DNA of 64,000 bases. Source: an uncultured Clostridia bacterium. Lineage in GTDB: Bacteria > Bacillota > Clostridia > Oscillospirales > Acutalibacteraceae. How positions within the stretch are numbered: the first letter of the stretch is position 1; each line of letters starts with the position of its first letter. Of this stretch, positions 328-5,140 are shown piece after piece. The stretch is from NCBI GenBank assembly GCA_947627135.1, contig CANQUV010000002.1:62001-126000 (forward strand), written 5' to 3'. The notes under the pieces were generated by a model that did no database searches, had not been told where the DNA came from, and saw only the letters and a list, made by a program, of their open reading frames with translations. The translations under genes and the position numbers were made by a program.

Positions 328-356
328 AACAATTACTTTTATTTTTAAAGAAACCT

Positions 357-397
357 AAAAAGGCCGTTCATTCTTATTTTGAATGAACGGCCTTTTT
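357..397. terminator. Bidirectional intrinsic terminator
   Basis: Perfect inverted repeat aaaaaggccgttcattc...gaatgaacggccttttt between convergent genes. Confidence 0.85.
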
Positions 398-409
398 ATT
401 GTTTTTAAA

Positions 410-1501
410 TTATACCTGCGCAATTTTATTAGTTATAATTTCAAAAAGCTTATCATATCTTGTCCACTTTTTAATAAGTTCCAGTAAAACGGATATGCCG
501 TAACAAACAACTGTCAATACAACAAATATAATAATAGAATACTTAAAACTATAAATAAATGTTTTAAAATACATATCGTAAATAAAAACATGGAACATAT
601 ATATATTTCCGCTGTGTTTTCCTAAATTCTCTAATACATTATTTAATACAGGAATATTTGAAATTACCAGGAAGGAAAGTAGGATTACAGGTAAAATAAA
701 CATCCCATCTAATTCTACTGATACTTTAAAAATTGTAACTTTATAATAAAATGTAATTAAAATTAATAAAAGCAAAACTGGAATACAAATTCTGTATAAT
801 TGTATTCTCTTTGGTATTCTTTCGAATACATCAAATTTAGAAAAATACATTCCAATAACAAAAGGAAACAAATACTCTTTTACACAAGCTACATCCGGTA
901 ATATGTATAAAGGAACAAAAATTATAAACAATGTAAAAACAATTGATATTTCAGGAAATTTTTCAAAAATTTTAAAAATAAGAGGAAAAAACATATTTAG
1001 AAAAATAATAAGAGTCATAAACCACCATGAGGAGTTCATTGTCTGAATTATCCCTCCTCCTCCGTTCCAACCGGACATTCCGAAAAAGTCCCGTAAAAAA
1101 TACCAGAAATTGTTTTCGTAAATTGTTGTGGGAGGATAATTAAAAATAAATCCTAACGGAACAAATATTATGTATATAAACCAAAAATTTGATAATAGAT
1201 GCAATACGTGATTTACGGCATATTTAACTTTTTCCTTTATTCCGGTATTACCCCCCCCCATTGAATTTTTATTCAAATAGGAAGTATAGCTTTTATATAA
1301 CCCAAATCCGCTCAAAAAAACAAATATGGCTACACATATTTTGAAAAATACTGAAATGACAGTTTCCGCAGGAACATCATGATACTTAAAAACAGGCGTA
1401 AAGCTATTCATAACCTCAAGTGTCTCAAAAAATAAATGATGCCACAACAACATTAAAACAGCAATTCCCTTTGCAATATTTGTTTGTCTTTTATCAAACA
1501 T
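410..1501 (-). CDS. Acyltransferase family 3 membrane protein (copy 1)
   Basis: 363 aa, MFDKRQTNIAKGIAVLMLLWHHLF..., multi-TM; acyltransferase-3/OafA-like N-terminal motif; contains a G9 tract. Confidence 0.85.
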   Translation of the reverse strand: MFDKRQTNIAKGIAVLMLLWHHLFFETLEVMNSFTPVFKYHDVPAETVISVFFKICVAIFVFLSGFGLYKSYTSYLNKNSMGGGNTGIKEKVKYAVNHVLHLLSNFWFIYIIFVPLGFIFNYPPTTIYENNFWYFLRDFFGMSGWNGGGGIIQTMNSSWWFMTLIIFLNMFFPLIFKIFEKFPEISIVFTLFIIFVPLYILPDVACVKEYLFPFVIGMYFSKFDVFERIPKRIQLYRICIPVLLLLILITFYYKVTIFKVSVELDGMFILPVILLSFLVISNIPVLNNVLENLGKHSGNIYMFHVFIYDMYFKTFIYSFKYSIIIFVVLTVVCYGISVLLELIKKWTRYDKLFEIITNKIAQV

Positions 1502-1534
1502 ATTTCCTTCCCCTAAACCTAAACATCATATATT

Positions 1535-1560
1535 TTATTCATAAATTGAATTTACTTCAA
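1535..1560 (-). pseudogene. Remnant of the asnB 3' end (EVNSIYE-stop versus DVNSIDE-stop)
   Basis: Upstream of copy 1, the minus strand reads GAA GTA AAT TCA ATT TAT GAA TAA. The asnB tail reads GAT GTA AAT TCT ATT GAT GAA TAA in the same position relative to copy 2. Confidence 0.65.
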
Positions 1561-1664
1561 TTAAAATTCAATAAACAAGTTTCTTTACACAATTCTATTT
1601 CAAAAATAAAACAAAAAACTGTTTGTTCTTAATTTGAATGAACGGCCTTTTTATTGTTTTTAAA

Positions 1665-2732
1665 TTATGCCTGCGCAATTTTATTAGTTATAATTTCAAA
1701 AAGCTTATCATATCTTGTCCACTTTTTAATAAGTTCCAGTAAAACGGATATACCGTAACAAACAACTGTCAATACAACAAATATAATAATAGAATACTTA
1801 AAACTATAAATAAACGTTTTAAAATACATATCGTAAATAAAAACATGGAACATATATATATTTCCGCTGTGTTTTCCTAAATTCTCTAACACATTATTTA
1901 ATACAGGAATCTTTGAAATTACCAGGAAGGAAAGAAGGATTACAGGTAAAGCAAAAAATTCATCTAAATTTTTATCATAAGTAAATAATAAGATTTTAAT
2001 AAAAAATCCAATTACAATTGATGATATTAACACCGGAACACATATTTTATATAATTGAAATCGTTTGGGTATTCTCTCAAATACACTAAATTTAGAAAAA
2101 TACATTCCAAGAACAAAAGGAAAAAAATAAACATTTACATCTGCAATACTCGGTAATATTGGTATAAGAAATATTATAATATGAGGATATTTATTAAAGA
2201 ATTTATAAATTAGGGGGAAAAAAATATTTAATATAAGTATCAGAGTCATAAACCACCATGAGGAGTTCATTGTCTGAATTATTCCTCCTGCTCTGTCCCA
2301 ACCGGACATTCCGAAAAAGTCCCGTAAAAAATACCAGAAATTGTTTTCGTAAATTGTTGTGGGAGGATAATTAAAAATAAATCCTAACGGAACAAATATT
2401 ATGTATATAAACCAAAAATTTGATAATAGATGCAATACGTGATTTACGGCATATTTAACTTTTTCCTTTATTCCGGTATTACCCCCCCCCATTGAATTTT
2501 TATTCAAATAGGAAGTATAGCTTTTATATAACCCAAATCCGCTCAAAAAAACAAATATGGCTACACATATTTTGAAAAATACTGAAATGACAGTTTCCGC
2601 AGGAACATCATGATACTTAAAAACAGGCGTAAAGCTATTCATAACCTCAAGTGTCTCAAAAAATAAATGATGCCACAACAACATTAAAACAGCAATTCCC
2701 TTTGCAATATTTGTTTGTCTTTTATCAAACAT
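1665..2732 (-). CDS. Acyltransferase family 3 membrane protein (copy 2)
   Basis: 355 aa. First ~145 aa and last ~75 aa almost identical to copy 1, centre divergent; contains a G9 tract. Confidence 0.85.
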   Translation of the reverse strand: MFDKRQTNIAKGIAVLMLLWHHLFFETLEVMNSFTPVFKYHDVPAETVISVFFKICVAIFVFLSGFGLYKSYTSYLNKNSMGGGNTGIKEKVKYAVNHVLHLLSNFWFIYIIFVPLGFIFNYPPTTIYENNFWYFLRDFFGMSGWDRAGGIIQTMNSSWWFMTLILILNIFFPLIYKFFNKYPHIIIFLIPILPSIADVNVYFFPFVLGMYFSKFSVFERIPKRFQLYKICVPVLISSIVIGFFIKILLFTYDKNLDEFFALPVILLSFLVISKIPVLNNVLENLGKHSGNIYMFHVFIYDMYFKTFIYSFKYSIIIFVVLTVVCYGISVLLELIKKWTRYDKLFEIITNKIAQA

Positions 2733-2765: not shown

Positions 2766-5030
2766 TTATTCATCAATAGAATTTACATCATTAATAATTT
2801 TATCAATTTCGTCGTCTGTTGCAATCGGCTTTTGTGCTTCAATTTTTAAATCTTCCGGCTTTTTAGCATTTTTAAGTGCCTGTGATGATGAAAAAATATC
2901 TTCGTAAACTTTTTGGGCCTGTGAAGTATCTTCGTTTATTTCTTCAATTATATTATCAGTTGAATCTTCATTAATATCTTCAATTTTTTCTTTCATTTCT
3001 TCTTCATTGTTATTACTTGTATCTTCTTGGGATATTGGCAAATTTATTTTTTCAATGCCCTCGTTTAAAATTCTCTCTGTTTCCTCAAAAGCCTCAGCTT
3101 CTGCCTTTTCTGCTTCTTCCTGTGCTTTTCTGCGTCTTTCTTCTGCCTGTTTTTTAAGTTCTGCAAGGTGATTTTCAGGCTTTGTTACCTTTTTTTCACC
3201 CTCTTTAAAGTAAATATCATACCAAACAAGAAAAACATAAATTGTCCAAACCTTGCGGCTGTTATCCTCTTTGTTATTGTAATGCTCATCAAGCCAGTCA
3301 AGTAAAATATCGCAGTTAAAAAATTTCTGGGCAGTTTTGCTTAAAAATTTTTCTCTTACTACCATATAGTAATGCTCATCTCTTAACCATACCCTTGTTG
3401 GAACGGGAAAGCCCAGTTTTTCTTTTTCTGCTGTTTCTATTGGAAGATGTCTTGCTGCTGCTTTACGCATGGCATATTTTGTGTTTTGCTTGTTGCATCT
3501 TAATTTTGTTGGAAGCTTGGACGCAACCTTGAATACCTCTTTATCAAGGAACGGTACTCTTAATTCAAGAGAATTTGCCATACTCATTCTGTCTGCCTTA
3601 AGAAGAATATCACCAACCATCCACATATTTATATCCAAATACTGCATTTTTGTAACATCGTCATATTTTCTGGCTTTGATGTAATGTTTTTTAGTAAGCT
3701 CCTGGGGACGGGTAGCAATAGACGGATCTTTCAAAAGCGCCTGCTTTTCCTCTTTATCATACATAAAGGCGTTACCTATAAAACGCTCTTCAAGAGGATG
3801 GGTCGCTCTTATGAGATAATCTCTGCCTTTAATATCAGGGAGCTTTTTGCAAAGCTTGCAAATTGCTTTTCTGATGCAATAAGGCACGATTGTCTGATAT
3901 ATTTTAAAAACTCTGGGATCGTTATAACAGGTGTATCCGCCAAACAGCTCGTCCGCACCTTCTCCTGAAAGCACAACCTTTACATATTCACTTGCAAGGC
4001 GTGATACAAAGTAAAGAGCAATACAGGAAGGGTCTGCCAAAGGCTGGTCCATATAGTACTGGACTGTTGGAACTGCATCCCAGAATTCTTCACTTGAAAT
4101 CAGGTGAGTATGATGTTCAACACCGATTTTTTTACTTAAATTTTCCGCCCAGCTGATCTCGTTATATTTTTTGCCGAAATCAAAACCGACCGTAAATGTT
4201 TTTTGGTCTGCAAAGTATGTTGAAACATAGCTTGAGTCAACACCGCTTGACAGAAAACAGCCAACCTCTACATCAGCTATTTTATGTGCATTTACTGAAT
4301 TTTCAAAAACCTTTTCAATTTTATCTACCGCTTCTTCTTCTGTAAGAGTTTCGTCAGGCTCAAATTTAGGGTCAAAATAACGGGTCGTTTCAATTTTTCC
4401 GTCTTTATACCAAAGGTAATGTCCCGGAAGAAGGCAGTAAACACCCTCAAAGAATGTTTCAGGCGGTACGCAGTACTGATATGAAAGATAAGTATCCAGG
4501 GCGTTATAGTTAAATTCCTTTTCAAATTCAGGATATTCAAGAATACTTTTTATTTCACTTGCGTAAATAAAGTTACCGTTTACCATAGTGTAGTGCATGG
4601 GCTTGATTCCAAAAAAGTCACGAGCTATGAATACAGACTTATCCACCGTATTGTAAATGGCAAAACCAAACATTCCTCTTAATTTATCAAGGAGTCCCTC
4701 CTGCCATTCTTCAAAGCCGTGAATTAAAACTTCCGAGTCGGTATCCGTGTAGAATTTATGACCCTTTTCAATGAGGATCTTTCTCAAATCCTGATAATTG
4801 TAAATTTCACCGTTAAAAGTAAGAACAAGGGTTTTGTCTTCGTTATAAATAGGCTGACTTCCTGTTAAACCGATATCAATAATACTTAAACGACGAAATC
4901 CCATTGAAATATAATCATCGGTGAAAACACCGTCTGAGTCAGGACCTCTGTGAGTTATTACCTCTGTCATATTTTTTATTGTCTGATCACGGTCAACGAC
5001 CTGACCTGTAAATCCGCAAATACCGCACAT
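2766..5030 (-). CDS. asnB: Asparagine synthase (glutamine-hydrolysing) with long charged C-terminal extension
   Basis: MCGICGFTGQ... class II amidotransferase N-terminus (Cys2 nucleophile) and SGEGADELFGGY synthetase motif. Start moved from 5090 to the MCGICG methionine at 5030. Confidence 0.93.
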   Translation of the reverse strand: MCGICGFTGQVVDRDQTIKNMTEVITHRGPDSDGVFTDDYISMGFRRLSIIDIGLTGSQPIYNEDKTLVLTFNGEIYNYQDLRKILIEKGHKFYTDTDSEVLIHGFEEWQEGLLDKLRGMFGFAIYNTVDKSVFIARDFFGIKPMHYTMVNGNFIYASEIKSILEYPEFEKEFNYNALDTYLSYQYCVPPETFFEGVYCLLPGHYLWYKDGKIETTRYFDPKFEPDETLTEEEAVDKIEKVFENSVNAHKIADVEVGCFLSSGVDSSYVSTYFADQKTFTVGFDFGKKYNEISWAENLSKKIGVEHHTHLISSEEFWDAVPTVQYYMDQPLADPSCIALYFVSRLASEYVKVVLSGEGADELFGGYTCYNDPRVFKIYQTIVPYCIRKAICKLCKKLPDIKGRDYLIRATHPLEERFIGNAFMYDKEEKQALLKDPSIATRPQELTKKHYIKARKYDDVTKMQYLDINMWMVGDILLKADRMSMANSLELRVPFLDKEVFKVASKLPTKLRCNKQNTKYAMRKAAARHLPIETAEKEKLGFPVPTRVWLRDEHYYMVVREKFLSKTAQKFFNCDILLDWLDEHYNNKEDNSRKVWTIYVFLVWYDIYFKEGEKKVTKPENHLAELKKQAEERRRKAQEEAEKAEAEAFEETERILNEGIEKINLPISQEDTSNNNEEEMKEKIEDINEDSTDNIIEEINEDTSQAQKVYEDIFSSSQALKNAKKPEDLKIEAQKPIATDDEIDKIINDVNSIDE

Positions 5031-5140
5031 AATGCAGTCTCCTTTCAAAAGGCAGCCGATGGCTGCACCTATCCGAGCAGATAGCACCATATAATAGCAC
5101 CCTTTTATGCCCGACTGTTTCCAAGCAGTTTTCTAAAAAA
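5031..5140 (-). promoter_or_regulatory. Structured 5' leader of asnB (possible cis-regulatory RNA, class unknown)
   Basis: Minus strand contains consecutive hairpins CTATC-TGCTCG-GATAG, GCAGCC-ATC-GGCTGC and CCTTT-TGA-AAGG just before GGAGACTGCATT-ATG. Confidence 0.4.

Follow-up and report, generated by a model that had tools for sequence, protein, structure and literature searches.

Do two adjacent genes that carry the same homopolymeric tract constitute a pair of switches? The window, the whole stretch of 64,000 nucleotides that we analyzed, comes from an uncultured Clostridia bacterium and contains two tandem acyltransferase genes, A and B, each with a run of nine guanines in its coding strand. 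Our reading, to which we give a probability of about 0.8 on the basis of sequence comparison, is that A and B are phase-variable enzymes of the acyltransferase-3 family, through which slipped-strand events would vary the acylation of a surface glycan.

A mosaic tandem pair with identical G9 tracts

The elements of the locus are as follows.

1665–2732, minus strand: gene B, Acyl_transf_3 membrane acyltransferase of 355 aa (PF01757, 62 bits, cut-off 31)
410–1501, minus strand: gene A, Acyl_transf_3, 363 aa, tandem paralogue of B (PF01757, 80.5 bits, cut-off 31)
2482–2490, minus strand: G9 tract of gene B, in frame, nucleotides 243–251 of the open reading frame
1251–1259, minus strand: G9 tract of gene A, in frame, nucleotides 243–251 of the open reading frame
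2298–2732, minus strand: 5′ part of gene B (its first 435 bp, with the tract), which matches gene A exactly
1067–1501, minus strand: 5′ part of gene A (its first 435 bp, with the tract), which matches gene B exactly
1502–1574, minus strand: leader of gene A and duplication junction, where a decayed copy of the 3′ end of asnB precedes 25 bp shared exactly with the leader of B
356–398, minus strand: strong terminator hairpin after gene A (−27.2 kcal/mol, z −8.1; terminator scan)
1600–1655, minus strand: decayed terminator after gene B, its right arm lost (−6.9 kcal/mol, z −0.9)
2766–5090, minus strand: asnB (asparagine-synthetase-like), upstream of B, its 3′ end within the duplicated unit (open reading frame and alignment; homologues in named MAGs)

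The tract of gene B is exactly nine C on the forward strand, that is G9 in the coding strand, and gene A has a matching C9; homopolymer lengths in a draft assembly may be off by one. Both tracts lie in the codons ATG GGG GGG GGT AAT (Met-Gly-Gly-Gly-Asn), and both are in frame in the assembly. The initial annotation had claimed the same G9 at the same codons, and in frame, in the second acyltransferase, and this is confirmed in coordinates, identity and frame. The two alternative phases reach a stop after 83 and 87 codons, compared with full lengths of 355 and 363. Any change of tract length that shifts the phase thus truncates the product, as it does in slipped-strand genes. When A and B are compared with their homologues, the site is seen to be a loop that varies in length and is flanked by hydrophobic stretches, and the glycine run is absent from the homologues.

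The match to PF01757 extends along almost the whole domain (profile positions 5–324 of 326) and exceeds the curated cut-off. Four histidine residues, H21, H22, H98 and H296 in the numbering of B, are invariant in 12 homologues, and we take these to be functional residues of the acyltransferase-3 enzymes. The most likely function of each protein is acylation, probably acetylation, of an envelope polysaccharide, and membership of the family points to a product at the surface. None of the solved structures matched the acyltransferase family profile, and AlphaFold2 models of both proteins were set aside (mean pLDDT 42, pTM 0.22).

The two proteins are 88% identical, and the differences are distributed very unevenly. 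There are none in the first 435 bp of the genes, including all 47 fourfold sites counted; the middle (offsets 520–850 of the open reading frame) has diverged by 27% in nucleotide sequence, and the final 242 bp by 1.7% (98% identity). When the 100 substitutions were placed randomly, the longest identical run in 20000 placements was 133 bp, compared with the 435 bp observed. The initial annotation had spoken of different central segments, putatively catalytic or transmembrane. The difference is real and the segment spans several hydrophobic stretches, in keeping with a transmembrane character, but the catalytic label fails because the invariant histidines lie outside it.

The simplest reading of the mosaic would be an old duplication followed by recent conversion of the ends, the alternative being an exchange that replaced the middle. 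The identity over 435 bp suggests gene conversion between A and B, which had been named in advance as a possible refutation of independent switching; independent slippage is still compatible with it. The tracts of A and B go back to a single event that the duplication copied and do not represent two independent events, and that both are ON and equal in length is also expected from conversion or from a simple lack of variation.

The duplication has left its mark on the flanks. The decayed asnB end in the leader of A is identical to its source at 38 of 48 bp, compared with an average of 19 and a maximum of 31 in 5000 shuffles. Since the hairpin after B has lost its right arm while that after A is strong, asnB, B and A may form one transcription unit. 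The asnB gene has a long acidic C-terminal extension (approximately residues 640–774) that is matched only in its closest named relatives; most homologues end near residue 640. The nearest named counterparts of asnB come from MAGs labelled uncultured Clostridia or Ruminococcus sp., of which several derive from rabbit, horse and rumen. One related MAG, whose asnB is 91% identical, lacks an acyltransferase at that place. Named relatives were reached through asnB only; the acyltransferase used as query on genome contigs gave no match.

Long G tracts and their alleles in this and related genomes

Are these two tracts exceptional within the genome? The assembly that holds the window comprises 1.78 Mb in 27 contigs and is 90% complete. 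It contains 12 tracts of G8 or longer (G8–G10), compared with about 1.1 expected under a third-order Markov model of the window without its two tracts, scaled to the 1.78-Mb genome; such repeats are longer than composition would provide, as is characteristic of slipped-strand genes. Ten of the 12 lie inside genes, nearly all of them glycosyl-, acyl- or acetyltransferases, and seven fall between positions 40 and 70 kb of a single contig, C12 (P ~1e-10 for a fixed 30-kb stretch). From its gene content this region reads as a polysaccharide locus, with sugar transferases and with polymerase-like and flippase-like membrane proteins. Its tract-bearing genes are two tandem Branch-type glycosyltransferases (PF02485), a GT4, a GT2, a third Acyl_transf_3 gene, a 578-aa membrane-type protein with no Pfam match and a gene with a weak FUT8-like match just below cut-off. 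A hexapeptide-type gene on contig C1 and the window pair bring the total to ten.

Two other tracts lie in different surroundings. A G8 (C7:11550-11557; L030:4551-4558) precedes the ATG of a dnaG-like primase gene by six bases, in the position of a ribosome-binding site, where a change of length could tune translation. A G9 (C1:88729-88737; L029:4730-4738) has no long frame around it and is possibly a promoter-type tract.

Six of the 12 tracts are followed directly by TAA or TAG, compared with 9.7% of G4–G5 runs (P ~5e-4, or 2e-3 if the window pair is counted once). This is suggestive of selection for an immediate stop, though the cases are few. The mutS gene is intact, ruling out loss of mismatch repair as the origin of the tracts. 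In one search of genomes of the same genus 28 of 36 lacked G9; in a larger search 12 of 161 had G9 followed by TA, of which this genome and G021 are the richest with six each. Some long G tracts in relatives were placed outside the pattern. In G025 and G001 the genes concerned have the look of prophage genes, and in other families several such tracts are found at the ends of contigs. In G001 a C-5 cytosine DNA methylase fragment in an apparent prophage region is frame-split at a G10 (C74; L090:4330-4723), and could be a phase-variable methyltransferase.

Three genes, all on C12, are split at their tract as assembled here, namely the FUT8-like gene and the first of the Branch genes, both with G8, and the GT2, with G10. 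Each has 213–281 codons open in another frame past the tract; the two fragments of the Branch gene match one family, and so do those of the GT2. These genes resemble pseudogenes, and are probably switched off instead. The second Branch gene is a tandem paralogue of the first with a G10 tract at the equivalent position, in frame. The Branch-type pair (L026:3849-6071) is thus G8 and OFF in one copy and G10 and ON in the other, a second candidate for combinatorial switching.

Orthologues in other genomes differ in both length and frame. The third Acyl_transf_3 gene (C12:66004-67107) has 80% DNA identity to a gene of G193, a sister species, with a tract at the same position that is G9 and in frame here and G11 and out of frame in G193. 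The G193 gene is open to its end past the tract; because it has kept more than 300 codons open at 20% divergence while silenced, it is not a decaying pseudogene. The GT2 gene is G10 and split here, and G11 and intact in G197 (79% identity). G197 also has an orthologue of the C12 acyltransferase (76% identity) that contains no such tract, so that the switch evidently comes and goes.

The window genes have no close orthologue in the genus-wide search. The best match, in G058 (46% identity), lacks the G tract and has instead 21 GACA units at its 5′ end. The ATG-started frame through that repeat is out of register with the acyltransferase frame, and from its sequence the gene reads as OFF. Among homologues of the C12 acyltransferase, that of G021 has 10 GACA units, likewise at the 5′ end, and that of G195 is split with no evident repeat; a further homologue, in G126, is split at a G7 run. 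Two more Acyl_transf_3 genes of G021 contain G10, of which one is split and the other intact, and the genome has further tracts in epimerase, GT2 and hexapeptide-type (acetyltransferase) genes, some of them split. This variety of GACA and G repeats indicates that slippage repeats, of two types and at different positions, have arisen several times in the acyltransferase-3 genes of the genus.

Further repeats were seen in congeneric and related genomes. In G021 two copies of the same leader (C6:72669 and C6:43368; L109, L040) have (CAGA)n of different length, one preceding an acyltransferase and the other running to the contig end. In G007 a gene whose start resembles that of a secreted protein has (CAGA)20 about 100 bp upstream of it (C181:15154-15233; L098), and in G194, a congeneric species, a second asparagine-synthetase-like gene is split at a G9 (C4:96053-96063; L135).

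A model for switching and its alternatives

Phase variability is strongly supported, though indirectly, by the enrichment of tracts in glycan genes, the intact frames of the OFF genes, the length and frame shifts between orthologues and the tetranucleotide repeats of homologues. The pair would have arisen by tandem duplication of a unit extending from the 3′ end of asnB to the terminator. The middles then diverged, and the tract and the rest of the 5′ part remained identical, for which gene conversion appears the best explanation. DNA polymerase slipping on G9 would gain or lose one G. The sequence shows that the G9 state gives the full membrane enzyme, and the other phases a stop no more than seven codons past the start of the tract, leaving a stub of 83 or 87 residues. 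Switching is expected to be reversible, since the gene is otherwise undamaged, and OFF alleles elsewhere do keep their downstream frames open. Mismatch repair, with mutS intact, may slow slippage on G9. The ON enzyme would transfer an acyl group, most likely acetyl, to an exopolysaccharide or other envelope glycan; that target is probable from the family and from the same type of switch in the polysaccharide locus.

Each copy would slip alone, for which the tandem Branch pair with its unequal states offers a parallel, and four ON/OFF combinations of A and B are logically possible. Since the tract lies within the identical 5′ ends, its state may also spread by conversion, so that over longer times it could be copied between A and B. 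Searches that included relatives, genus genomes and viral contigs revealed no second allele of the window pair, and a scan of viral contigs for the tract context gave no match. The pair would be part of a simple-repeat phasome of about ten genes.

Could the guanines simply encode an invariable stretch of glycines in a disordered loop, one that was duplicated along with the gene and has no role in switching? The tracts of A and B are identical and in frame, the loop tolerates insertions and mutS is present, all of which would fit. Yet homologues manage without a glycine run at this site, tracts are present at about ten times expectation and concentrated in surface-glycan genes, and there are OFF alleles and orthologues of different tract length, so that we consider fixed glycine codons quite unlikely. 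Slippage might instead occur during transcription or translation, giving a fixed fraction of protein whatever the length in DNA. Homopolymer frameshifts occur in bacteria, and the open downstream frames of the OFF genes are in accord with this. But orthologues differ in tract length and frame at the DNA level, and the GACA found in homologues is a poor site for RNA slippage; use of the tract in RNA is highly improbable.

The mosaic itself invites a different proposal, that recombination between A and B is the main switch and the tract is secondary, with conversion or deletion through the identical ends swapping the middles or leaving a single hybrid. Near-identical ends around a diverged middle, and an identical run far beyond that of the random placements, are what such exchange would leave. 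No alternative arrangement was seen, however, and other tract genes show signs of slippage without having such a pair; recombination as the main switch is unlikely. The same 435-bp exact repeat is longer than short reads, and in a draft of 27 contigs the assembler could have collapsed or copied the ends, making the equal state of the tracts uninformative. Against this, the copies differ in middle, leader and terminator, and two genes must therefore exist, while G tracts recur in independent genomes. An artefact would touch the claim of identity only, the tract in at least one copy standing regardless, and we hold it to be very unlikely. Slipped-strand variation of A and B is the reading that we prefer.

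Relation to known phase-variable systems

Phase variation by slippage is well known, and A and B would join an established class; the interest lies in the kind of bacterium and in how large the set is. A recent review (2025) noted that genomes with many phase-variable loci are seemingly restricted to pathogens, regarded this as a major open question and suggested database bias (PMC11868660, section 8). In the open-access literature that we searched, no account of a multi-locus repeat phasome from Clostridia came to light. The present genome, from a gut member of the Clostridia and with about ten glycan genes that bear repeats, is a candidate counter-example to that restriction, together with the overlapping sets of congeneric species. 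The surfaces of such bacteria, and hence their recognition by phage and host, may be mixed within one clone, and a single consensus genome would conceal the mixture. A broader proposal, which we put forward tentatively and think doubtful as a whole, is that a branch of uncultured Clostridia of the herbivore gut has a multi-gene polysaccharide phasome built of G tracts and GACA repeats, repeatedly in acyltransferases, and that in the tandem pair exchange of the A and B middle segments by conversion is added to independent ON/OFF slippage, so that both the specificity and the presence of acylation would change.

One close parallel is oafA of Haemophilus influenzae, a phase-variable LOS O-acetyltransferase of the acyltransferase-3 family (PMC9558356, PMC2651432). 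As in A and B, the length of a simple repeat within the gene sets the frame. The 5′GACA repeats reported in H. influenzae genes (PMC2651432) have the same unit as those of the G058 and G021 homologues. By contrast oafA has a tetranucleotide repeat in mid-gene and is a single gene of a Gram-negative pathogen, whereas here there is G9 in a tandem mosaic pair in Clostridia. The poly-G phase-variable glycan genes of Campylobacter, such as cgtB (PMC6437147) and others of the genus phasome (PMC6321876), are similar in having G8–G11 tracts in several glycan-modifying genes per genome, with a single-G change truncating the protein. That phylum is unrelated, and our genomes differ in the acyltransferase-3 pair and in the GACA repeats found alongside in congeneric species.

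NeuO is a soluble enzyme of hexapeptide fold whose gene has a heptanucleotide repeat. This polysialate O-acetyltransferase of Escherichia coli K1 provides phase-variable O-acetylation of the capsule (PMC3046976), a likeness to what we propose, but it is prophage-encoded and of another protein family. Lastly, the sortase-pilus switch of Bifidobacterium breve has G10–G11 tracts whose slippage was measured in culture and in mice, and G tracts are known to mislead polymerases (PMC9187656). It shares with the present genome G tracts in the genes of a Gram-positive gut commensal. There, however, the genes are those of pili, at two loci, in Actinobacteria, while here they are about ten glycan genes in Clostridia.
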